Source: Rhizobium sullae
GTDB lineage: Bacteria > Pseudomonadota > Alphaproteobacteria > Rhizobiales > Rhizobiaceae
Length of the DNA stretch: 64,000 bases
Direction of reading: 5' to 3'
NCBI RefSeq assembly: GCF_025200715.1
Contig: NZ_CP104145.1
Span: 310,001-374,000 of the forward strand
The notes beneath the pieces were generated by a model. The model did no database searches, had not been told where the DNA came from, and saw only the letters and a list, made by a program, of their open reading frames with translations. How positions within the stretch are numbered: position 1 is the stretch's first letter; every line of letters begins with the position of its first letter. This document shows positions 23,397 through 56,684 of this stretch, piece after piece. The translations under genes and the position numbers were made by a program.

Positions 23397-24533
23397 TCAC
23401 CGAAATACCGGTCTATTCCTCCACAGAGTTCCGGCGGAGAGCTCGGCATATCCGAGATTAAAAACGGCGCGCATGTAGTTGGTGTTGAATGGATCGCGCA
23501 TGGAATAGGGCACTTGAACGTCGATCGAGGCGAGATGGAAACGTGCGTTTGTTAGTTTGGAGTAGTTGTAGAGGGCCGTCAGCGCGCTCTGTGTCTGCGA
23601 TTTGACGAAGATCGAGTATGCCCTTGTGATCACAGACAGCGTTTTGTCCGGCGTGATAACATATTCCGGCATGAGTGCGTTGTTGGTAATCACATAAAAA
23701 TCGACGCTTTGCCTTTTGGCTGCCAGACGGGTGCTACTTGTCAGCAGAAATTGTGGAATCGTGAGGACCGGAGACGCGGACCCTCCATCTGAGTGCATTT
23801 CCTTGAAATGGCGCCCTTGCGACTCGACCTCAATCATGACCGCCGGATAGACTCCTGGTATGCTTGAAGAGGCCACCATGACGTCCTGAAACAGTCTCAA
23901 CGCGTCAGGCCGGCCGCTGTTTGCGATGACGCCCATGTTCCACACGACGGCACGCTGGGTGTCCAGATTGGTAGTTAGGATAAGGAGACGGCGGCCTTTG
24001 CGATGTTCGGCTGCAACCTGTTGCAATATCGCGGGAGTAATCGAGCGTTCGATCATCCGTCTCAATGGATCGGCTCTCAGCAAGCTTTGCCCAAACAATC
24101 CGCCGGCTCGTTTGCTTCGGACAAGGTCTTCGGCGATGCCGCTTGTGTAAAGATGTATCAGGGTGTCGTCATAAGCTGATCCTAGAAATGCAAAAGGTGC
24201 AATCAGGGCACCGGTACTGACGCCGGTGACGACATCGAATTGCGGGCGAGACTTCTTGGCGCTCCACGCTGAGAGAACGCCGACGCTGAAGGCGCCACCC
24301 GCGCCGCCGCCCGAGATCATCAGAGCGTCGAGTCTATTCCGCTTGGTCGCCGGCGCCCAGTCGAGAGTATTTCGTGGAGCTTCGTCGGGGCGGACGTCGA
24401 GATAGGAGCGAATCTCGCCATACCCAGCGACCGAAGCATTTTCCGCCTCCTTTGCGCTAACGGCTCTATCCAGCGTCTGCGTGCATGCGGACAAGATGAA
24501 GGCGATCGGAATAAGCGCGATAAGTGCTCGCAT
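23397..24533 (-). CDS. Patatin-like phospholipase, lipoprotein
   Basis: This 378-residue protein begins with a lipoprotein signal peptide whose lipobox is LSAC, so it is probably anchored to a membrane facing the periplasm. The patatin motifs are present: oxyanion-hole glycines in SGGGAGGAF, nucleophile in GVSTG, and the catalytic aspartate in SDGG. The expected activity is acyl-ester (phospholipid) hydrolysis through a Ser-Asp dyad. I chose the ATG at 24533 because AGAGGGG lies just upstream, inside the longer GTG-initiated alternative at 24554. Confidence 0.88.
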   Translation of the reverse strand: MRALIALIPIAFILSACTQTLDRAVSAKEAENASVAGYGEIRSYLDVRPDEAPRNTLDWAPATKRNRLDALMISGGGAGGAFSVGVLSAWSAKKSRPQFDVVTGVSTGALIAPFAFLGSAYDDTLIHLYTSGIAEDLVRSKRAGGLFGQSLLRADPLRRMIERSITPAILQQVAAEHRKGRRLLILTTNLDTQRAVVWNMGVIANSGRPDALRLFQDVMVASSSIPGVYPAVMIEVESQGRHFKEMHSDGGSASPVLTIPQFLLTSSTRLAAKRQSVDFYVITNNALMPEYVITPDKTLSVITRAYSIFVKSQTQSALTALYNYSKLTNARFHLASIDVQVPYSMRDPFNTNYMRAVFNLGYAELSAGTLWRNRPVFR

Positions 24534-24746
24534 GAGGCCCCTCTTCAAGGGCACGCCGTTCCATCACCGGGCCGCCTCCCAACAGGTGGCAGGACGCGCA
24601 GGCGGCCCAGGGCCGCCTGCGGGGGTCTACGTCCCGCGGCCCCGTTCCCGGGGGAGGGAACGCGACCGAAGAGGTTGCCACGGAAATCAACAAGCATCGC
24701 CTTCACCTGGGTCATCTTGCCAGTCGCTTGCGGAGAAAAGGGTTCG

Positions 24747-27700
24747 TCACTGAACACGCCCTCGCTTCGAAAGCTCGGGCTTCAATGCGATCGCTGCGTG
24801 ATCGTTGCATGCATGCGGTTCGTCGTTAGCGGTTTCCTGATCCGGCCCGCGCCCGCGCACGAGGCGCTTGAGCGCCTCCTGCAGGTCGTCGACGAAGGTG
24901 AAGATGACAGGGATGACGATGAGGCTGAGCAGCGTCGACATCATCACCCCCCCGATCACCACGATCGCCATCGGCCGGCGGAAACTCGAATCGCCACCCG
25001 TCAGGCTGAGAGCGACGGGAAGCATGCCGGCTGCCATGGCGATCGTGGTCATGACGATCGGCCGGGCGCGCTTGTGGCAGGCGTCCACGAGGGCATCGAA
25101 CCGCGACATGCCCTGGCGGCGCGACATGATCGCATATTCGATGAGAAGGATGGAATTCTTGGTGACCACTCCCATGAGCATGAGCAGCCCGATGACGGCC
25201 GCCATCGAGAAGCTGGTTCCGGTCACCACCAGCGGGACGAGCGCGCCGCCGAGCGAGAGCGGCAGGGCCATCAGAAGGGTGAGCGGCTGCAGGAAGTCGT
25301 GGAAGAGCAAGACGAGAACCGCATAGATGCAGAAGACGCCGATCGCCATTGCAAGGCCAAAGCTCTGGAACAACTCCGAACTGCGCTGAAGTTCGCCTTG
25401 TTCGACAAGGATGACCCCTGGCGGCAGGCGCTGGAGCGCCGGCAGGGCCTGCGCCTCACCGTTGACGTCGCCCAGGATGCGGCCGTTGAGTTCGACGGAA
25501 AGGGTGACATTGCGCATTCGGTCGATGCGGTCGATCTCCGACGGACTGCCGCCGATCCGGATATCGGCGATCGATCCGAGATCGACATTGCCGTTCGTTC
25601 CAGACACTCGCATGTTCTTGATGTCGTCGAGCTTCGTGCGTGTCTCGGGGCTGAAGCGAACGACGATCGGAACCTGACGCTGCGGCAGGTTGAGCTTTGG
25701 CAGATCGGCGGAATATTCCCCATTCGTCGCCACGCGCACCGCTTCGGCGATGGCGCTCGAGGTCACTCCGAGCGCTGCGGCGCGCGCGAAGTCGGGCGTG
25801 ATCTGGATCTCCGGCGCCTGCCTGGCTGCGGTCGATGTCACCGCGCCGATCCCCTGCAGTGTGCGGAGCTGCTCTTCGAGCGCAGTGCTTGCGCTGTCAA
25901 GCGCATTGGCATCATCACTGGCAAGGGTGATCTCCAGCTTCGTACCGTTGCCGCTGCCGACCGCGACCCGCACGCCGGGAAGGACCGCGAGAGCCTGCCG
26001 GATGTCGTTTTCGATCTCCGACTGCTTGCGATCGCGCTCGCCGATGGGTGACAGCACGGCAACAATAGTGGCGGATCCGACGCTGCTCGTGGTGCTGGAG
26101 TCGGGGCCGCCGCCCGAGGATGCTGAACCGACCGCGGAAAAGACATGCGTGACGTCCTGGAGCTTGCCGACGATATTGGCGGCCTTCGTGGTGGTGGCGT
26201 CCGTCTGCTCGATCGTGGCGCCTGGCTGCATGGTGAGCGTGATCTGAGCTCGCGCGTCGTCGGAAGCGGGCAGGAAGCCGGATTTCAGGAATGGGATGGT
26301 GGCAAGCGAAAGTCCGACGACGATGGCAGTCACGGCCACCGTCATCTTCCTGTGGCTCATGGCCGCCTTCACGATTGCGAGATATGTGCGCATGAGCAGG
26401 CCGTCTTTTTCCTCGGTGGGATGGGCCTTCATGAAATAGGCGGCCATCATCGGCGTCAGCAGGCGTGCGACGACGAGCGAGGCAAGGACCGCAACGGCGG
26501 CAGTAACCCCGAACTGGCGGAACAGAAGTCCCGGAATGCCACTCATGAAGGCCGTCGGCAGGAAGACGGCGACGAGCGTGAAAGTGGTTGCGATAACGGC
26601 GAGCCCGATCTCGTTGGCGGCTTCGAGAGCGGCGTCGACCGGTCGCTTGCCCATCTGCAAGTGACGGGCGATGTTCTCGACCTCGACGATGGCGTCGTCG
26701 ACAAGGATGCCGACCACCAGCGAAAGCGCCAGCAACGTGACGATATTCAGGCCGAAGCCGGCCAGATACATGACAAGGAAGGTCGGTATGACCGACAGCG
26801 GCAGCGCCACGGCGGACAGGATCGTCGCACGCCAGTCCCGAAGGAAGAGCCAGACGACGACGATCGCCAGGACGGCCCCTTCGTACAGCATGTGCATCGA
26901 ACCATTATAGTTATCGACGATCGGCCCGACCGTGCTGTACGCTTCCTCGATCTGCACATTGGAGTGCGTGGCTGCGAACCGTTTCATTGCCGTGTCGACA
27001 TCGGCCGCGACACCGCTGTCCGAAAACCCGTTCGAGCGTTTGATCTCGACCGCGACCACCGGTTTGCCGTCGAGATAGGCCATCGAAGAACGCTCCGCGA
27101 AGCTGTCCGTGACGGATGCGACGTCGTCGAGGCGAACCTGCTCCCCGTTGGCCAGGGGAATTCTAAGCGCCTTCAGAGCATCGACCGATGCTACGGCGCC
27201 GAGCGTGCGCAACGTCTGACGGGTGCCGCCAATCTCCCCAAGGCCACCTGAAGTATCAGCCTGAACCGACTTCAATTGCGCCGACACAGTGGTCGCCGTC
27301 ACGCCGAATGCGGCCATCGTCGTCGGATCGAGGTCGACGTGAACTTCGCGGTCGACACCGCCGATGCGATTGACCTGTCCGACGCCCGGTACCGACAGGA
27401 GCGCCTTGGTCAGATCGTTGTCGATGAACCAGGAAAGCTCGGTTTCATTGAGGACGGCAGATTGGATGGCATAGGTGACCAGCGCCGAATTCTGCACGGT
27501 GACTTTGGTGACGCTTGGCGTTTGCATCTGCGCCGGCAGATCGGCCTTTGCGCTGTCCACGGCGTTGCGGACCTCGTTCAGGGCGGTTTCGCTGTCTTTC
27601 TCCAGTTTGAAGGACACGCTGATCGACACCGTGCCGTCGGTGATCGTGGTGGTGACGTGGTCGAGATAACTCAACGAGGCAAGATTGTCCTCGATCGTGC

Positions 27701-27893
27701 GGGCGACCTCGGTTTCGAGCTGCGCCGGCGCAGCACCGTCGAGCGTCGCGGCAACTTTGATGGTCGGGAGGTCCATATCCGGGAAGTTCTGAACCGGCAG
27801 ATGCTGGAAGGCCAGCAAGCCGCCGCCGGCAAGCATCGCAAAAAGCAGTATTGCCGGTACGGGATTGCGGATCGAAAATTCGGAAAAATTCAT
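24747..27893 (-). CDS. RND efflux transporter, inner-membrane permease
   Basis: This 1048-residue pump is of the AcrB/MexB (HAE1) type: proton-driven export of hydrophobic compounds as a trimer. It has the N-terminal helix (SIRNPVPAILLF), periplasmic porter domains and a second set of helices. The helix-4 motif LVVGILVDDAIVEVENI carries the paired aspartates needed for proton relay. Length fits the family. The ATG at 27893 overlaps the fusion-protein stop by one base, so the two genes are coupled. The outer-membrane partner is at 31341-32795, beyond the divergent two-component genes. Confidence 0.93.
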   Translation of the reverse strand: MNFSEFSIRNPVPAILLFAMLAGGGLLAFQHLPVQNFPDMDLPTIKVAATLDGAAPAQLETEVARTIEDNLASLSYLDHVTTTITDGTVSISVSFKLEKDSETALNEVRNAVDSAKADLPAQMQTPSVTKVTVQNSALVTYAIQSAVLNETELSWFIDNDLTKALLSVPGVGQVNRIGGVDREVHVDLDPTTMAAFGVTATTVSAQLKSVQADTSGGLGEIGGTRQTLRTLGAVASVDALKALRIPLANGEQVRLDDVASVTDSFAERSSMAYLDGKPVVAVEIKRSNGFSDSGVAADVDTAMKRFAATHSNVQIEEAYSTVGPIVDNYNGSMHMLYEGAVLAIVVVWLFLRDWRATILSAVALPLSVIPTFLVMYLAGFGLNIVTLLALSLVVGILVDDAIVEVENIARHLQMGKRPVDAALEAANEIGLAVIATTFTLVAVFLPTAFMSGIPGLLFRQFGVTAAVAVLASLVVARLLTPMMAAYFMKAHPTEEKDGLLMRTYLAIVKAAMSHRKMTVAVTAIVVGLSLATIPFLKSGFLPASDDARAQITLTMQPGATIEQTDATTTKAANIVGKLQDVTHVFSAVGSASSGGGPDSSTTSSVGSATIVAVLSPIGERDRKQSEIENDIRQALAVLPGVRVAVGSGNGTKLEITLASDDANALDSASTALEEQLRTLQGIGAVTSTAARQAPEIQITPDFARAAALGVTSSAIAEAVRVATNGEYSADLPKLNLPQRQVPIVVRFSPETRTKLDDIKNMRVSGTNGNVDLGSIADIRIGGSPSEIDRIDRMRNVTLSVELNGRILGDVNGEAQALPALQRLPPGVILVEQGELQRSSELFQSFGLAMAIGVFCIYAVLVLLFHDFLQPLTLLMALPLSLGGALVPLVVTGTSFSMAAVIGLLMLMGVVTKNSILLIEYAIMSRRQGMSRFDALVDACHKRARPIVMTTIAMAAGMLPVALSLTGGDSSFRRPMAIVVIGGVMMSTLLSLIVIPVIFTFVDDLQEALKRLVRGRGPDQETANDEPHACNDHAAIALKPELSKRGRVQ

Positions 27894-28966
27894 CAACCTT
27901 CTCCCGCAATCTTCACGAGATCGTTGTCCGACAGAAAAGCTCCGCCCGACGTCACCACTCTCGCCGAGAAGTCTATGCCGGACACGATCTCGACTTCGCC
28001 GTCGATGCGGCGGCCGGTCTCGACCCGCACCCGTCTTACCCGCTTGTCCTCGCCGGCCGTGAAGACATAGTTTATCCCGTCACGGAAAACGATCGCCGTC
28101 TCCGGAACCGTCAGCGCCGGCGTGGTTGTCAGTTCGATGGTGCCGGTGACGTAAAGACCGGTGCGCGGCTGAACATCCTGGGGAAGCGCCACATAGACAA
28201 TCGCCCGGCTTGTATTGGTGTTGATCGAAGGTCCGACGAGCCTTACCTTGCCCTGAAGGAGACGTCCGTCCGGCCCGTCGATGTCGACGCTCAATCCTTC
28301 CGAGATGCGTGAAAGGTAACGAGCCGAAACCTCGGCCTGCCATTCGACCCGCTGCTGGCGGACCAGACGAAACAGCTCGGTGCCGGATGAGACGACGGCG
28401 CCGAGTTCGGCTGATCGCGAGGTTATCAGGCCGTCATCGACGGCCGTGACGGTTGTCTGGTCGAGCTTGATCTTCTGGCTGTCGAGTGCCGCCTCTTCGG
28501 ACGCAAGACTTGCCGTTGCCGTCTGTTCGTCGGCGAAATATTCGATAATCTTCTCATCCGAGAGGGCGCCGGAAGAGCGAAGCTGCCGAGCCCGATCCGC
28601 ATTGGCCTTCGCCTTTGTCAGGTTTGCCTGAGCGGTCACGACGGCCGCCTCCTGCTTGCGAAGGTCGGCCAGCACGCTGTCCTGCGACAGCCGGACGAGT
28701 ATCTGCCCCTTCTTAACAACGGAGCCGACCTCAGCCAGGATTTCGGTTACGCGCAGGCCGCTCGTCTCGGAAGCAATAATGGCTTCCTGCCAGGGCTTCA
28801 GCCAGCCGCTTGCGGGAACGGTCTCCGGCCAGTCTCGCTGAGCCGGTGCCACGAGGGAGACGGTAAGGGCAGGTGCCGCGGACTGATCCGTCATGGCGCT
28901 GCGGAGGGGAAGCAGGAGCGTTGCCGCAACAAGAGCGGTAGCGAATACTCCAGGCGGTTTTCTCAA
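27893..28966 (-). CDS. RND efflux periplasmic adaptor (membrane fusion protein)
   Basis: This 357-residue adaptor has an N-terminal hydrophobic segment, a lipoyl-like half (VGSVVKKGQILVRL), and a long helical hairpin (about residues 85-165) rich in Ala and Lys. The beta-barrel and membrane-proximal domains follow. It links the inner pump to the outer-membrane channel. I chose the TTG at 28966 because AAGGAG lies 7 bases upstream; a longer TTG start at 28987 is possible. Its promoter region holds a CpxR-like box array. Confidence 0.88.
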   Translation of the reverse strand: MRKPPGVFATALVAATLLLPLRSAMTDQSAAPALTVSLVAPAQRDWPETVPASGWLKPWQEAIIASETSGLRVTEILAEVGSVVKKGQILVRLSQDSVLADLRKQEAAVVTAQANLTKAKANADRARQLRSSGALSDEKIIEYFADEQTATASLASEEAALDSQKIKLDQTTVTAVDDGLITSRSAELGAVVSSGTELFRLVRQQRVEWQAEVSARYLSRISEGLSVDIDGPDGRLLQGKVRLVGPSINTNTSRAIVYVALPQDVQPRTGLYVTGTIELTTTPALTVPETAIVFRDGINYVFTAGEDKRVRRVRVETGRRIDGEVEIVSGIDFSARVVTSGGAFLSDNDLVKIAGEG

Positions 28967-29101
28967 CGATCCACTCCTTGTGGTCAAAGGCGTTGGTGCC
29001 TTTTCCCGATCTGCGCCGACTCGATGAAGGGTTGCAGCTCATGTGGAGGCACCCGATCCTGGCTCGCGGTGATGTCATGGCAGGATAAGTAACGGGGCGA
29101 A

Positions 29102-29139
29102 CGTTAAGTGCGGTCAAGTTAGTGTTAAGTTAGGTAAAA
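29102..29139 (-). promoter_or_regulatory. CpxR-like direct-repeat box array, copy 1
   Basis: On the minus strand four half-sites follow one another: TTTTAC (29134-29139), CTTAAC (29124-29129), CTTGAC (29113-29118) and TTAACG (29102-29107), with steps of 10, 11 and 11 bases. The same array occurs at 31254 and 32857. Read the other way these are GTAAA-type repeats like the E. coli CpxR box. It lies between the efflux operon and the response-regulator gene and could control both. Confidence 0.75.
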
Positions 29140-29200
29140 CTCGGTCGCGCGGCTGTGTTTGTGCTGTATGGCTCACCAGGATCAATGACGGACGAAGTGA

Positions 29201-29887
29201 ATGAACAAGGTTCTCCTCATCGACGACGATGCCGAGCTGACGACGCTTCTGCAGGAATATCTGCTCGAAGAAGGATATGACGTCGTCACGGATACGGACG
29301 GTCGCGCCGCCATTGCGGCGGCTGCCGGCAATGCGGTCGATATTATCGTGCTCGACATCATGATGCCTCGGATGAACGGGATCGAAGTTCTGCAAAGGAT
29401 CAGGAAGCTCAGCCAGGTTCCTGTGCTGATGCTGACCGCAAGGGGCGATGACGTCGACAGGATATCGGGTCTCAATCTCGGCGCCGACGACTATGTGCCG
29501 AAGCCATGCTCGCCGGGCGAACTTGCGGCGAGACTGCGCGCCATCCTCCGTCGGGTTGGTCAGCCGTCAGCCGGCGCGACGACCGACACGATAAGGGCGG
29601 GAAAACTCGTGATCCATCCGGCCAGCAGGATCGCCGAATGGCGCGGCGAAACCTTGGAACTGACCGGCACGGAATTCAGCCTGCTCGAGGTCCTCGCCCG
29701 CAGCGCCGGCCAGCTCGTGTCGAAGCAGGACATTTCGAAGCGGGCCTTCGGCAAGCCGCTGACCCCGTTCGATCGCCGTATCGACGTCCATATCAGTAGC
29801 GTTCGCCAGAAGCTCGGACTGAGGGAGGATGGACAATCCTGGATCCAGTCCGTTCGCGGCCAGGGCTATCAACTTCTCGTGGACTGA
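29201..29887 (+). CDS. OmpR-family response regulator, CpxR-like
   Basis: This 228-residue regulator has a receiver domain (acidic pocket IDDDAE, phospho-acceptor Asp in VLDIMMP, near residue 51, and Lys in YVPKP) and a winged-helix output domain. The output end (GKPLTPFDRRIDVHISSVRQKLG) is close to CpxR. It lies 3 bases ahead of its sensor kinase gene. The presence of GTAAA-type boxes at three neighbouring promoters, as bound by CpxR in E. coli, supports the CpxR comparison. Confidence 0.92.
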   Translation: MNKVLLIDDDAELTTLLQEYLLEEGYDVVTDTDGRAAIAAAAGNAVDIIVLDIMMPRMNGIEVLQRIRKLSQVPVLMLTARGDDVDRISGLNLGADDYVPKPCSPGELAARLRAILRRVGQPSAGATTDTIRAGKLVIHPASRIAEWRGETLELTGTEFSLLEVLARSAGQLVSKQDISKRAFGKPLTPFDRRIDVHISSVRQKLGLREDGQSWIQSVRGQGYQLLVD

Positions 29888-29889
29888 CC

Positions 29890-31200
29890 ATGCCCCGACT
29901 TTTCTGGAAGTTCTTCACGACGATCTGGTTGACGATGGCGGCGACTGTGGGCGTGATCTTCCTGCTCGTCATTTTTCTCCAAGGGGTTCCTTTTGCGCGC
30001 GAACTGGAGGAAGAGCGGCGAGCGATCGCCCTGAACCTGACAGCAAACGTGCTCGCGAGAGATGGCGAAGATGCCGCCGCGCATTTCGTGCGCACAAGCC
30101 AAGAGACGCTTCCGCCTGGCCTGACGATCTCCAAAGCCGCGAAAGCCGATGCTTGTGCGGTTCCAAAAGCCGTCGACACAAGATCCGTCCTGAAGGACGG
30201 GGTTTGCTATCAGATTTCCCTGCCGGCCCAAGCGACGTTCACCTTCGAGAACTTCGGCCCGTTCTTGCCCTGGCTCACGATCCTGATTTCGAGCACGATA
30301 TCGGCAGGCGCACTCGCCCGATACCTCATTCGTCCCGTCGTGCATCTGCGTGATGGCTTGAGTGCGCTCGCCAATGGCCGCTTCGATTTCCGCATCGGTG
30401 ACAAGATGGCCGGCCGGAAGGATGAAGTCACCGCGCTTGCGCATGACTTCGATTCCAGTGCCGCCCGGCTTCAGGAGCTGCAGGATGCGCAGCAGAGGCT
30501 GTTCCATGACGTGTCCCATGAGCTGCGTTCGCCCTTGTCCCGTCTGCAGGCCGCTGTCGGCGTCCTCCGGCAGAGCCCGGCGAAACTCGGCGCCATGCTG
30601 GACCGCATGGACCGGGAGGTCGAACGGCTGGACGCGCTGGTCGGCGAAGTTCTGACGCTTGCCAGATTGACGGCGGGATCCAGCCGGCCGCTGAAGACGC
30701 ACACTCTTGATGTCATCGAGCTGCTGAACGAAATCCTCGGCGACGCGGCATTCGAAGCCCAGGCACGGGAGGTCTCGATCACAACCAGTGTCGAGGGCAC
30801 CTTCCGCGCCGAGGTCGAAGGTGAGCTGATCTACAGGGCGCTCGAAAACGTCGTCCGCAACGCCCTCAAGTATACGGCCGAGCATTCGCGCATATCAGTG
30901 GCTTGCGAGGCGACGGCCGACCGCCTCAAAATCTGCGTCACGGATCAGGGACCAGGTGTCAGGCGAGACGAACTGGAACGGATCTTCCAGCCGTTCTCAC
31001 GTGGGACAGAGGCTGTGCCAAGAGGCGGATACGGCCTGGGTCTGGCAATCACCAGGCAGGCCATCGAGCGCCACGGCGGGCGTGTGCATGCGTCATTGCC
31101 TGATACCGGTGGCCTGGCAATCACCCTGGAGCTTCCCAGGAAACCGATGCCCTATGGCTTGGCTGACGACCACGCCTGGCGACCACTCGACGAAGCTTGA
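29890..31200 (+). CDS. Sensor histidine kinase, CpxA-like
   Basis: This 436-residue membrane kinase has a first helix (about residues 10-32), a periplasmic sensor region (about 33-120), and a second helix (about 125-150) followed by HAMP. The phospho-acceptor histidine is in HDVSHELRSPLSRLQ. The ATP-binding boxes are N (ENVVRNALKY), G1 (DQGPGV) and G2 (GYGLGLAI). It should sense envelope stress or a pump substrate and phosphorylate the adjacent regulator. The gene starts 2 bases after the regulator stop. Confidence 0.92.
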   Translation: MPRLFWKFFTTIWLTMAATVGVIFLLVIFLQGVPFARELEEERRAIALNLTANVLARDGEDAAAHFVRTSQETLPPGLTISKAAKADACAVPKAVDTRSVLKDGVCYQISLPAQATFTFENFGPFLPWLTILISSTISAGALARYLIRPVVHLRDGLSALANGRFDFRIGDKMAGRKDEVTALAHDFDSSAARLQELQDAQQRLFHDVSHELRSPLSRLQAAVGVLRQSPAKLGAMLDRMDREVERLDALVGEVLTLARLTAGSSRPLKTHTLDVIELLNEILGDAAFEAQAREVSITTSVEGTFRAEVEGELIYRALENVVRNALKYTAEHSRISVACEATADRLKICVTDQGPGVRRDELERIFQPFSRGTEAVPRGGYGLGLAITRQAIERHGGRVHASLPDTGGLAITLELPRKPMPYGLADDHAWRPLDEA

Positions 31201-31253
31201 GGCGGTGGTGGACGAGGCCGCGCAGCTCGGTGGAATCGAGACGTGCAACCAGA

Positions 31254-31291
31254 CTTTACCTAACTTTACAGTGTCTTTACCGCCATTAACG
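31254..31291 (+). promoter_or_regulatory. CpxR-like direct-repeat box array, copy 2
   Basis: Three exact CTTTAC repeats (31254, 31264 and 31275) plus TTAACG at 31286 give the same 10-11-11 spacing as copy 1. It lies 50 bases ahead of the outer-membrane channel gene. About 90 bases, including this array and the leader to the start codon, are nearly duplicated at 32857-32948. Confidence 0.8.
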
Positions 31292-31340
31292 TTGGCGCCG
31301 CTAAGCCTGAACCTACGATCCCGGTTCAGAAAGCTCGCCA

Positions 31341-32795
31341 GTGACTCCGTCGCTCTGCACAAGAATACCATCCCTCCGCTACGCCACATCGGCACTCACG
31401 CTTCTGTTGGCAGGCTGCGTCAGCGGCCCGGATCACGTCCCCCCACAGACGCCGCTTCCTGCTAAATTCAAAGAGGGTGGTGGCAAGAGCCACGGCGATG
31501 TCGTGACGGCGCAGTGGTGGACGGCCTATCGTGACGAACAGCTCGACAGCCTGGTGGCTCAGGGCCTCAGCGAGAACCTCGATGTGCTGCAGGCGATCGA
31601 GAGCATCAACGCGGCCTCCGCCAATGTCACGGTTGCCGGGGCCGGCGGTCTGCCGAGCCTCTATGTCGACGCATCGCACACTGTGTCGGGTGAGAAGGGT
31701 TCTGAGCGTACGACGATCGGCACCACGAATACGACAGGCGGCGAGGCCAGCCTTTCATGGCTGCTCGATCTCTTCGGCCAGTACCGTCGCTCTAGAGAGA
31801 GCGCAATCGCCTCGCTTGGGGCCGCCTACGCAACGGCCGATGATGCGAAGCTCTCCTTTCTGAAGGACCTCGTCTCGAGCTATGTCGACGCCCGCTATTA
31901 TCAGCAGCGCGTCGCGCTTTCGAAGGCGAATTTGAAATCCCGTCAGGAGACCTACGAACTCACGCAGCTGCAGCTCAAGGCAGGTGCGGCCTCTCGTCTT
32001 GACGTCGTTCAGGCCGAAGGCCTTGTTCGGTCAACGAAGGCAGATATCCCCGGCCTCGAACAGAGCTTTACCGTTTCGGCCCACCACATCGCCTTGCTCC
32101 TCGGGATGCCGGCGGCCTCGCTGATGAATGAGCTGCAGAGGAGTGCGGGCCAGCCGGTCTTCCGCGGCGACATTCGAGCCGGCATTCCGGCCGATCTCAT
32201 CCGCAACCGTCCCGATATCCGCAAGGCCGAACGCGATCTAGCGGCGGCCGTTGCCGATATCGGCGCTGCCGAAGCCCAGCTCTACCCGTCGATCTCCCTA
32301 TCCGGGTCGATCTCGCCGAGCTGGGTCAAATCATCCGGTGCCAGCGGTGGAACCCTGACCAGTTGGTCCTTCGGACCGACGCTCAACCTGCCGATCTTCG
32401 ATGGCGGCAAATTGCGTGCGAATGTCGACATCGAAAAATCCGATGCCAAAACCCAATATCTCGCCTGGAAAGCGGCGGTGCTGAATGGGGTCGAAGAGGT
32501 GGAAAACGCCCTGTCGGCCGTTCGCCATGACGCGCAGACGTTGGAGCCGCTACGCAGACAGGTGGAAACCGCCCAGGAAGCGCTCGCGCTTTCAACGACG
32601 AGCTATACAGACGGCGCCTCGTCGCTGCTTGATGTCCTGGACGCGCAACGATCCGTCTCCGATGCTCAGGCAAGCCTCGCAGCCACCGTGCAGCAAGTTG
32701 CTAAGGATTATGTGGATCTTTATGTCGCCGTGGGTGCCGGCTATCTGTCCCGACAAGCGCCTGTCGCTTCCGAGCGAGCGGCGAAGTCGGGCTGA
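31341..32795 (+). CDS. RND efflux outer-membrane channel lipoprotein (OprM/NodT type)
   Basis: This 484-residue TolC-like lipoprotein has a signal peptide with lipobox LAGC. Two tandem OEP repeats follow (NLKSRQETYELTQLQLKAGAASRLDVVQAE and the later SLLDVLDAQRSVSDAQ). It should complete the tripartite pump with the proteins encoded at 24747-28966. The start is GTG at 31341; it aligns exactly with the ATG of the next gene in the duplicated leader, which supports it despite a weak ribosome-binding site. Confidence 0.92.
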   Translation: MTPSLCTRIPSLRYATSALTLLLAGCVSGPDHVPPQTPLPAKFKEGGGKSHGDVVTAQWWTAYRDEQLDSLVAQGLSENLDVLQAIESINAASANVTVAGAGGLPSLYVDASHTVSGEKGSERTTIGTTNTTGGEASLSWLLDLFGQYRRSRESAIASLGAAYATADDAKLSFLKDLVSSYVDARYYQQRVALSKANLKSRQETYELTQLQLKAGAASRLDVVQAEGLVRSTKADIPGLEQSFTVSAHHIALLLGMPAASLMNELQRSAGQPVFRGDIRAGIPADLIRNRPDIRKAERDLAAAVADIGAAEAQLYPSISLSGSISPSWVKSSGASGGTLTSWSFGPTLNLPIFDGGKLRANVDIEKSDAKTQYLAWKAAVLNGVEEVENALSAVRHDAQTLEPLRRQVETAQEALALSTTSYTDGASSLLDVLDAQRSVSDAQASLAATVQQVAKDYVDLYVAVGAGYLSRQAPVASERAAKSG

Positions 32796-32856
32796 TGGAC
32801 CACCTGGCCACCCGCGGTGCAAGGCAAACGGCGCCTGCGGACCTTGGATTTCACGA

Positions 32857-32894
32857 TTTTACTCAACTTTACACAGGCTTTACAGCCATTAACG
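32857..32894 (+). promoter_or_regulatory. CpxR-like direct-repeat box array, copy 3
   Basis: TTTTAC (32857), CTTTAC (32867), CTTTAC (32878) and TTAACG (32889) repeat the 10-11-11 pattern. The leader that follows (GGCGTCTC to GCCAATG) matches the leader of the 31341 gene closely, so the whole promoter was duplicated or is under strong constraint. Confidence 0.8.
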
Positions 32895-32943
32895 TTGGCG
32901 TCTCTAAAACAGAACCCACAGTCCCGGTTCAAAAGATTCGCCA

Positions 32944-33783
32944 ATGACCTTCAACGTTCAAGCAGTGGAAATTCCCGTGCAGGCGGCAATCTGCGCCGTC
33001 CTCTTCGCTTCGCTCTCCTCCTGCGCAAACGTCCCCTTACAGGAAGGGACGTCCCTTGGATCCTACACGGGAATGGTGGCATCGGGCGGCTCTCTGACCA
33101 AGGCGAAATTGCGCGTGAATTCGCCGGTCGTACTCGCCGCGCAGACAGTGCGCATCGTTCCCACCACGGTGGAAAGTGCTCGCGGCTCCTTCGACGCCAA
33201 AGACCTGGCACTCCTGACCAACGCCGTCGACCGGGCGCTGTGTATGGGCCTCAGCAATCGGTTCAAGGTCATGGGTCTAAACCAGCCGGCGGACCTCGTT
33301 GTCCACGCGATGGTCACCGACATCGTCGCGACGAACCAGGCGATCGCCGCGACCTCCACTGTCGCCACGCTCGGCGCTTCTGTGGCTCACGTTCCAATCC
33401 CGAGGATTCCGATCGGTCTCGGCGGTTTGTCGGCAGAAGCCGAAGCGGTCGGCCAGGACGGTTCTCAGCAGGCCGCGATGATCTGGTCACGCGGCGCGAA
33501 CATGGTGACGACAAAGGCACGGATATCCGCGGTCGGGGATGCCTATTCCCTTTCATCAGCATTCGGCGCCGATTTCAGCCGCATGCTGGTGAAGGGTCAG
33601 GACCCGTTCAAGGGAACGTCGTCCACCCGGTTGATGCAAAAGATCAAGGCGGCATTCGGCAGCGAGCCGAAATACGATGCCTGCAAGGCATTTGGAGCTG
33701 CGCCCGGTATCAAAGGGGCGGTCGCCAGTCAGTTCGGTTTGCCGCCAAGCTGGAGCGACAAGGGTGCGACGGCCTCTCAATAG
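32944..33783 (+). CDS. DUF3313-like lipoprotein
   Basis: This 279-residue lipoprotein has a signal peptide with lipobox LSSC at about residue 27. The body resembles DUF3313 outer-membrane lipoproteins (function unknown), including the repeated small-residue region ATSTVATLGAS. It has its own CpxR-like promoter, so it probably belongs to the same envelope-stress or efflux regulon. The ATG at 32944 lies at the same distance from its box as the GTG of the channel gene. Confidence 0.75.
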   Translation: MTFNVQAVEIPVQAAICAVLFASLSSCANVPLQEGTSLGSYTGMVASGGSLTKAKLRVNSPVVLAAQTVRIVPTTVESARGSFDAKDLALLTNAVDRALCMGLSNRFKVMGLNQPADLVVHAMVTDIVATNQAIAATSTVATLGASVAHVPIPRIPIGLGGLSAEAEAVGQDGSQQAAMIWSRGANMVTTKARISAVGDAYSLSSAFGADFSRMLVKGQDPFKGTSSTRLMQKIKAAFGSEPKYDACKAFGAAPGIKGAVASQFGLPPSWSDKGATASQ

Positions 33784-55123: not shown

Positions 55124-55926
55124 GCCAGCTCACCGTGACAATAGAAGATGAGGCCGCCGCGCCTCGCTTCACCTTCCCTCGTGGACTGGTTATTCCAGTG
55201 ATCCTCGTGGCGGCGTGGGAGCTAGCGTTCCGGGTGGGCGGCTTCCAGAGTGACAGTCTTGCTGCTCCGGGCGGAGTCGCCGTTGCTCTAGTGCGCGGCC
55301 TTGCGAGCGGAGAGATCCTGCAGGCGACCGGCCAGACACTCTCGGCAGCCATGCTGGGTCTTGCCATCGCTGGGGTCATAGGTCTCGTCATGGGAGTGTT
55401 CCGGGGCCTCTTCTGGCGACTGGACTACGTGCTGGATGTCACCACGGAAGCGCTTCGGCCAATCCCGTCGTCCGCGCTGATCCCGGTGATGATCCTCATC
55501 TTCGGCTTCGGCTACAGGCTGGAGAGCGCCTGCGTGGCGTTCAGTTGCACCTGGACGATCTTCATCCTGACGCGCACAGCGGTCATGGGCGTCGAGCCGC
55601 GTCTCATGGAGGTCGCGAAAGTCCTCCAGCTCGGTCTGATTGACCGGACGTTCAAGATCATTCTCCCGGCGGCGCTGCCGCGCATATTCGTCGCCTTCCG
55701 CCTGGCAGCAGGCTTGGCGCTCGTTGTCGCCGTCACCTGCGAAGTCACCGCCAATCCGTTGGGTATGGGCTTCGAGATGATGTCGGCGAGCCAGTCACTC
55801 CGTCCCCAGCTGACGCTCGCATATCTTGTTTGGATCGGCTTAATTGGCTGGTCGCTGAATGCGATCCTCGTGTACGCACAGCACCGCTTCTTCGGTCCTG
55901 CCGCCTCGATCGGAGCAGCGAAATGA
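55120..55926 (+). CDS. ABC transporter permease, SsuC/TauC type
   Basis: This 268-residue permease has about six helices and the EAA loop (MEVAKVLQLGLIDRTFKIILPAALPRIFVAFR). The start ATGA overlaps the ATPase stop. A second, different permease follows, so the channel is a heterodimer rather than the usual homodimer of the Ssu/Tau type. Confidence 0.92.
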   Translation: MSQLTVTIEDEAAAPRFTFPRGLVIPVILVAAWELAFRVGGFQSDSLAAPGGVAVALVRGLASGEILQATGQTLSAAMLGLAIAGVIGLVMGVFRGLFWRLDYVLDVTTEALRPIPSSALIPVMILIFGFGYRLESACVAFSCTWTIFILTRTAVMGVEPRLMEVAKVLQLGLIDRTFKIILPAALPRIFVAFRLAAGLALVVAVTCEVTANPLGMGFEMMSASQSLRPQLTLAYLVWIGLIGWSLNAILVYAQHRFFGPAASIGAAK

Positions 55927-56684
55927 CCGATAACCGACTCATCTGGCGCATCGGCGGCTTCGTCTTCGCGGCGCTCGTAGTGGCGATATGGCAGATCCAG
56001 GCCAACCTCGGCCTGATCTCCCCGATCTATCTGCCCAGCCCCCAGCGGGCCATGAATTCGCTCATCAACGGCTTCTCAAACGGCCTGCTGCTGGACCGAA
56101 TGATGAGCACGGTCGAGCGGATGATCTACGGCTGGGGGCTAGCATCACTCCTCGGGGTCGTGCTCGGCTCGATCATAGGCATCTCGAGGGCTGCGCGGTC
56201 CTACCTCGAGCCCATGCTGGAATACCTCCGGCCGATGCCCGCATCCGCTGTCATTCCGGTCATGATTCCGATCCTGGGTCTTACAGAGACCATGGTTCTC
56301 ACGGTGATTGGCTTCGCTGCGCTGTGGCCGACGCTGCTCGCAACGATTCATGGGTTCTCTTCCATCGAGCCCCGTCTGACCGAGGTTGCGCGAATCCTGA
56401 AGCTCAGCCGTGCGGGCTTCATCTGGAAGATCGCGCTGCCGAATGCCCTTCCTGACATCATTGCGGGCGCACGCATCAGCCTCACCTACGCACTGATCCT
56501 GTCGGTCGTTGGCGAAATGCTCTCTGGCCGCGAAGGTCTCGGCCAGTTCATCCTATCGTCGGCACGACTGTTCAAGGCGCCGGACCTGTTCGCAGGTGTA
56601 ATGCTACTCGGTCTGCTCGGCTACCTGTCCGCCATGCTCGTCGCCCAGTTGGAGAAACATCTCCTGAAGTGGCGGAAAACCTGA
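55923..56684 (+). CDS. ABC transporter permease, SsuC/TauC type (second)
   Basis: This 253-residue permease has the EAA loop TEVARILKLSRAGFIWKIALPNALPDIIAGAR. The ATGA start at 55923 overlaps the first permease stop; a longer in-frame start lies inside that gene and is rejected. It forms the membrane channel with the 55120 product. Confidence 0.92.
   Translation: MTDNRLIWRIGGFVFAALVVAIWQIQANLGLISPIYLPSPQRAMNSLINGFSNGLLLDRMMSTVERMIYGWGLASLLGVVLGSIIGISRAARSYLEPMLEYLRPMPASAVIPVMIPILGLTETMVLTVIGFAALWPTLLATIHGFSSIEPRLTEVARILKLSRAGFIWKIALPNALPDIIAGARISLTYALILSVVGEMLSGREGLGQFILSSARLFKAPDLFAGVMLLGLLGYLSAMLVAQLEKHLLKWRKT

Follow-up and report, generated by a model that had tools for sequence, protein, structure and literature searches.

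The 64,000-nucleotide (nt) stretch of the Rhizobium sullae contig NZ_CP104145.1 analysed here (assembly GCF_025200715.1, positions 310,001 to 374,000 of the forward strand; in the following the window) contains a locus encoding an RND efflux pump, a NodT-family outer-membrane channel, a probable lipoprotein and a CpxR-like two-component system, and three predicted promoters at this locus each carry an array of four directly repeated half-sites. Judged from the sequence, and with a probability of roughly 85%, we propose that these arrays are operators of the response regulator encoded at 29201, which would activate the pump, the channel and the DUF3313 gene by a class II mechanism and would moreover activate its own expression. 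The genes and promoter features of the locus are the following, in window coordinates:

24747..27896, minus strand: RND inner-membrane pump gene, ortholog of RetPC55
27893..28966, minus strand: RND membrane-fusion protein gene, ortholog of RetPC56, with a TTG start at 28966 and an AAGGAG site at 28974-28979
29090..29091, minus strand: TA of the putative -10 element of the pump promoter, following the last half-site at a distance of 11 nt
29102..29139, minus strand: array 1, TTTTAC-N4-CTTAAC-N5-CTTGAC-N4-CTTAAC (steps 10, 11, 10), preceding the pump operon on this strand and the response-regulator gene on the other
29140-29145, plus strand: weakly conserved -35-like hexamer CTCGGT of the regulator promoter
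29164..29169, plus strand: CTGTAT, putative -10 element of the regulator's own promoter, in a conserved block of the start-aligned upstream regions
29201..29887, plus strand: gene of a CpxR-like OmpR-family response regulator, ortholog of RetPC57
29890..31200, plus strand: sensor histidine kinase gene, ortholog of RetPC58, CpxA-like in the HAMP, HisKA and ATPase domains only
31254..31291, plus strand: array 2, CTTTAC-N4-CTTTAC-N5-CTTTAC-N4-ATTAAC (steps 10, 11, 10), upstream of the channel gene
31254..31340, plus strand: promoter segment from the array to the start codon, duplicated at 32857-32943 (pairwise matching)
31302..31303, plus strand: TA of the putative -10 element of the channel promoter
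31341..32795, plus strand: NodT-family outer-membrane efflux channel gene, ortholog of nodTc
32857..32894, plus strand: array 3, TTTTAC-N4-CTTTAC-N5-CTTTAC-N4-ATTAAC (steps 10, 11, 10), upstream of the lipoprotein gene
32905..32906, plus strand: TA of the putative -10 element of the lipoprotein promoter
32944..33783, plus strand: gene of a DUF3313 protein, a probable lipoprotein (LSSC signal recognized by eye) and predicted third target, its homologs in relatives being preceded by arrays

The initial annotation of this DNA had placed the three arrays at these positions and on these strands, and its exact pattern matches these three sites and no others in the 7.6 Mb genome, the same pattern written backwards giving no match in the whole R. 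sullae genome. A looser pattern tolerating up to 3 mismatches found the same three arrays in the window and none in 100 shuffles of the window. Moreover, a genome scan with an array matrix, as had been suggested there, was done with the profile R1, built from 37 arrays of other genomes with the R. sullae genome excluded, and returned only the three arrays up to an E-value (E) of 10 (150 of 1136 first-look candidates scored). The spacing had to be corrected, as steps of 10, 11 and 11 had been described with a fourth hexamer TTAACG that was one base out of register. In a single register, NTTWAC starts at offsets 0, 10, 21 and 31, i.e., in steps of 10, 11 and 10, the middle base of the third half-site being A, T or G. 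The unit itself had been correctly recognized as the half-site of Escherichia coli CpxR read from the other strand: GTAAA-N5-GTAAA occurs exactly in half-sites 1 and 2 of arrays 2 and 3, and array 1 as well as half-sites 3 and 4 are variants of it.

Comparison of the upstream regions in relatives showed that the spacing is kept. In 80 named loci (L071-L150), in which chains of four TTDAC were collected with free steps of 7-14, 94 of 98 chains have steps of 10-11-10, two have 10-10-10 and two 10-10-11, and the reversed DNA of these 80 loci yielded no four-half-site chain. Upstream of the 80 regulator genes the pairwise distances between half-sites peak at 10, 11, 21 and 31 (139, 46, 102 and 63 pairs), the next commonest distance being 20 (16 pairs), and the coding regions of the 80 loci hold 5 half-site pairs altogether on both strands. 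When the regions upstream of the regulator in the window and in L071-L109, 39 distinct ones in total, were aligned on its start codon alone, the array columns reached a mean of 0.82 bits versus 0.38 bits in the flanks. From array 1 to the regulator start there are 61 bp in the window and in 24 of the 39 named loci L071-L109, and 59-62 bp in 30 of them, and within 300 bp before the regulator start no strict array was found in 6 of these 39 loci. The 10-10-10 form occurs in L097 and L105 (Mesorhizobium). With the strict pattern, 34 arrays were found in 18 of 20 loci taken around the regulator, mostly on the promoters of pump, channel and DUF3313 genes. Among the named loci, 29 of the 31 with a regulator identity of at least 80% have a strict array, and it was found in 9 of 11 at 70-80% and in 3 of 10 at 64-70% identity, and in none of the 80 loci when reversed. 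In distant beta- and gammaproteobacterial loci, inspected by eye, the first pair is often kept and the third half-site lost.

Array and regulator also occur together. Among 148 genomes of the genus, the regulator (E <= 1e-70) is present in 70 and the array (R1, E <= 0.001) in 69, every genome with an array being among the 70, and in the 78 genomes without the regulator no array was found at this threshold. The sole regulator-positive genome of the genus without an R1 match is G010 (64% identity), whose two arrays (L045) are degenerate, the third half-site reading CTAAC. In a sample of 297 genomes of the family, the regulator was found in 14, the array in 11 and both in 10.

The regulator consists of a receiver domain (PF00072) and an OmpR-type winged helix (PF00486). 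That it is CpxR-like, as the initial annotation held, is borne out by 48% identity to E. coli CpxR and by its rank as top CpxR-model match of its own genome: it scores 250.5 bits and the next match 183.5 bits, among 22 stretches at E <= 1e-20, some of which are receiver domains only. The CpxR model is also its best NCBIfam model, at 250.9 bits and below the curated cut-off of 341. In the alignment, its output domain shares LTPFDR.ID.HIS..R.KL with E. coli CpxR, and the DNA-recognition region is conserved, the residues that we take to be those touching DNA in CpxR-type output domains serving as reference. The kinase completes the CpxRA-like system claimed earlier for its cytoplasmic half, but not for a CpxA-type periplasmic sensor: its best two NCBIfam models are CpxA models (205.5 and 221.4 bits, below the cut-offs of 486 and 800), the match to CpxA begins at residue 128-129, and a CpxA-type periplasmic sensor was not found. 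Cysteines occupy positions 89 and 106, within what is presumably the periplasmic part, in 24 of 24 aligned kinases (L071 and L110 omitted from the alignment), and E. coli CpxA contains no cysteine. This invariant pair suggests a sensor that depends on a disulfide or on thiols.

The regulator is 94% identical to the product of G009:C5:55707-56390, and RetPC57 of R. etli is printed at pRet42c 55707-56393 (PMC7769827). As these coordinates coincide, G009 is taken to be R. etli CFN42. For this orthologous system, in which the genes of regulator, kinase, divergent RND pump and nodTc channel are ordered as in the window, it was published in 2020 that RetPC57 activates itself, the pump and nodTc: upon overexpression of the regulator, uidA fusions rose from 45 to 793 units for RetPC57, from 5 to 190 for RetPC56 and from 5 to 1099 for nodTc. 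Furthermore, regulator and kinase form one operon, a deletion mutant formed fewer nodules, no CpxP or NlpE accessory proteins were reported in the rhizobial strains studied, and the mechanism was called unclear by the authors (PMC7769827). Different from the present analysis, the accessible parts of that paper report no binding site, the words 'motif' and 'binding' occurring once each in other senses, and 'lipoprotein' is absent from them. G009 has two R1 matches only; these precede the pump and the channel genes, and neither corresponds to array 3. The claim of the initial annotation that efflux pump, channel, lipoprotein and two-component system form one regulon thus stands for the pump, channel and regulator promoters, which are activated by the R. 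etli ortholog, and is a prediction for the lipoprotein gene. Since the link between pump, channel and two-component system is already published, what is new is the operator and the lipoprotein target. Very probably, the arrays constitute the operator absent from the R. etli account and would, on the basis of their sequence, represent two CpxR-type boxes 21 bp apart.

The arrays stand at a fixed distance from a conserved TA. After reduction of 122 distinct array contexts to 51 at 80% identity, 48 of the 51 non-redundant arrays showed TA at offset 48-49. This position is 11 nt past the last half-site and lies outside the array search pattern, which stopped before it. An array covering the -35 region at a fixed distance from the predicted -10 element is the layout of a class II, PhoB-like promoter. 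The E. coli pstS promoter, in the fetched sequence and with a pho box and -10 element that we assume to be correctly assigned, is similar in having four phased direct half-sites for PhoB and 11 nt from the last of these to the -10 element, and differs in the half-site CTGTCA and in steps of 11. On the regulator side, the start-aligned upstream regions contain a conserved CTGTATGG block 37-30 bases before the start codon, and a weakly conserved -35-like CTYGGY adjoins the array ahead of this block. A regulator promoter with a -35 and -10 element of its own, next to pump and channel promoters without a -35 element, would explain the basal activities of 45 versus 5 units in R. etli.

Arrays 2 and 3 had been treated as independent of each other and of array 1, which does not hold for this pair. 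Their promoters are identical at 31 of 38 positions in the array and at 37 of 49 from the array to the start codon, and their surroundings at just 13 of 60 positions upstream and 19 of 60 in the coding sequence. Array 1 matches arrays 2 and 3 at 28-30 of 38 positions in the array, but at 15-17 of 49 downstream. The high match in array and leader and the low match outside indicate that the promoter segment was copied between the channel and the lipoprotein genes, and arrays 2 and 3 therefore count as a single piece of evidence. Judging by this segment, the lipoprotein gene probably joined as a third target by copying of the whole promoter segment. A leader hairpin, GAACC/GGTTC, was considered as an RNA element and dropped, as its arms are mismatched in L032 (by eye) and copying explains the likeness better.

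In relatives, arrays recur before pump, channel and DUF3313 genes. In 15 further loci, which were picked because R1 matched them, the next gene was taken as the open frame within 450 bases of the array, and at 24 of 37 arrays this frame encodes a membrane-fusion, channel or DUF3313 protein. A fourth array is found in R. leguminosarum-group relatives, usually downstream of the pump gene, where it precedes a conserved open frame of 63-93 residues; there is none in the window. In the seven sequences available, this frame has a GGAG site before its start, both ends are conserved and the length differences are multiples of three. The fourth array lies at the following positions:

L181:3975, minus strand: fourth array
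L182:3846, minus strand: fourth array
L183:3669, minus strand: fourth array
L186:6345, plus strand: fourth array
L191:3653, minus strand: fourth array
L194:10041, plus strand: fourth array
L195:3171, minus strand: fourth array

Two membrane-fusion genes, each with its own array, are present in L039, L184, L189 and L190, one of the two being shortened and adjoining the regulator. G088 has the system twice; the more distant copy (L185:2-4458) has kept array and pump genes, and its regulator match is split over different frames.

The layout was compared with known CpxR targets. At E. coli cpxP, GTAAA/TTTAC pairs are likewise 10 bp apart and the box lies between cpxP and the regulator gene, which is divergent. 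The promoter strand reads CTTTAC-N4-TTTTAC and, at offset 47, TAAACT. The difference is that the third and fourth half-sites are degenerate there, with two weak half-site-like stretches between the pair and TAAACT (by eye). Given this similar layout, the initial description of the arrays as an extended version of the known box may in fact describe the known box more completely. Among eight E. coli start regions, the strict pair pattern occurs in the orientation of the gene in the shared cpxR-cpxP region only; at htpX and yccA it lies on the opposite strand, and none was found in the start regions of spy, yebE, degP and dgcZ, so that the likeness is claimed for cpxP alone. CpxR control of RND pumps is already known from Pseudomonas aeruginosa, where CpxR directly activates mexAB-oprM (PMC5063474; PMC12802237). 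As far as the available parts of these sources go, mexA differs in having one box at -246 from the start codon, and muxA (muxABC-opmB) has two overlapping CpxR sites at -78 and -89, read here as three phased half-sites stepping 11 bp, versus four stepping 10-11-10 in the arrays. In Sinorhizobium meliloti, the CpxP/CpxR/CpxA homologs SMb21562-SMb21560 similarly include a CpxR homolog with GTAAAN5GTAAA before the operon, the differences being a CpxP-like gene, no neighbouring pump mentioned in the available parts of the paper, and targets reported there as unknown (PMC2912261). In the literature searched, no description was found of this array, nor of four half-sites in 10-11-10 steps anchored to a -10 element. 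Two other types of operator were rejected on what the accessible parts of their sources describe: the CenR-type site TGA-N8-TGA (PMC9275681) has another half-site and fewer repeats, and AgrR-type sites are inverted repeats (PMC7380067), all half-sites here having the same direction.

Taken together, the following mechanism is proposed. The CpxR-like regulator would occupy the array as its operator. Between the end of the fourth half-site and the TA of the -10 element the step is 11 nt, so that a bound regulator would replace the -35 element, as in class II activation. In this way it would turn on the genes of the RND pump, of the NodT-type channel and of the DUF3313 lipoprotein. Situated between divergent genes, array 1 would also activate the regulator-kinase operon via the separate promoter on its other side, and this autoactivation would result in positive feedback. 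The phasing of 10, 21 and 31 fits two dimers on one face of the helix. The two dimers, the class II contact and the control of the lipoprotein gene are suggested by the arrangement of half-sites and promoters.

Several observations weigh against this proposal. Direct binding of the arrays by the regulator is itself something we infer from the DNA. The co-occurrence is partly trivial because most arrays belong to the locus of the regulator itself. In addition, several of the searched genomes had contributed arrays to R1, and scoring was confined to the top first-look candidates of each genome. Four of the 14 regulator-positive genomes of the family have no R1 match: by eye, two have a variant array and one a single pair, and in one no array was seen within 230 bp upstream of the regulator. 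Conversely, one of the 283 regulator-negative family genomes (G370) has a partial array (L202 near 4157, minus strand). No open frame of 80 residues starts in the 350 bases that follow it and the genome has no regulator match at 1e-45, and this partial array is probably a relic. Among the 28 named loci with distant regulators (<64% identity), 9 have a strict array. The next gene is not a pump, channel or DUF3313 gene at 13 of the 37 arrays in the further loci; 7 of these are the recurrent fourth array and 6 precede other or no clear genes, one of which (L187:5953) looks like a chance match. As G009 has only two R1 matches, the lipoprotein target is without published support.

Each array might instead hold a single two-half-site box as binding site, the remainder being part of the promoter, whose -35-like CTTGAC/TTAAC has a likeness to half-sites. 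By eye, the first pair is the best preserved one in distant relatives and at E. coli cpxP, with decay of half-sites 3 and 4, and CTTGAC is similar to what we take to be the rhizobial -35 consensus. However, the distance to the -10 hexamer (CTANNN) is 20 nt for the third half-site and 10 nt for the fourth, which is not a usual -35 spacing in either case, and the four half-sites are in phase in nearly all of the chains of the named loci, making this explanation unlikely in our view. The binding of another OmpR-family regulator to the arrays, with the encoded regulator acting indirectly, appears quite improbable. There is no shortage of candidates, considering the 22 CpxR-model stretches of the R. 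sullae genome and the 18 OmpR-family regulators counted in R. etli in the available parts of the paper (PMC7769827), and we note that activation in R. etli was seen upon overexpression, which can cause cross-activation. Yet the arrays are missing from the 78 genus genomes without the regulator, which presumably still hold other OmpR-family regulators, and the half-site is that of CpxR, to which the encoded regulator is by far the most similar in its genome. Finally, the likeness of the arrays might stem from the copying of one promoter and have nothing to do with operator function, as arrays 2 and 3 are alike down to the start codon; but array 1 shares the array alone and not the flanks, and in the alignment of the 39 upstream regions conservation is higher in the array than in the flanks, so that this possibility is hardly worth considering.

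If the arrays are the operators of the regulator, they would fill a gap, at the level of DNA, in the account of a two-component system with an effect on bean nodulation, and the DUF3313 lipoprotein would be a new predicted addition to the regulated set. The array appears specific enough for genome-wide target prediction in Rhizobiales, and it suggests reading a CpxR-type promoter not as one 15-bp box but as a series of up to four half-sites with the -10 element as anchor. More tentatively, and with clear reservations, the four-half-site array with the fixed 11-nt step to the -10 element might be an ancestral activating module of CpxR-type regulators, of which the two-half-site box would be the best-kept half and in which the second half would have degenerated at cpxP.

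The nearest named matches to the locus are in R. leguminosarum-group strains, some of them plasmid-borne, e.g., on pRL10 of R. johnstonii 3841. In L080 (R. redzepovicii) and L085 (R. phaseoli ATCC 14482), the regulator promoter is separated from the start codon by about 110 bp of repeat-like DNA, as it is, judged by distance, in G009 (L037). The DUF3313 protein has 370 homologs, a single PDB match at E 0.6 and an AlphaFold model with a mean predicted local distance difference test score (pLDDT) of 70; its gene is followed by genes for a 118-residue protein without family match and then a BA14K protein. At the other end of the locus, directly downstream of the pump gene, lies a gene for a patatin-like phospholipase (window 23397-24554), which stands beside the pump gene in L032, L036 and L188 as well.

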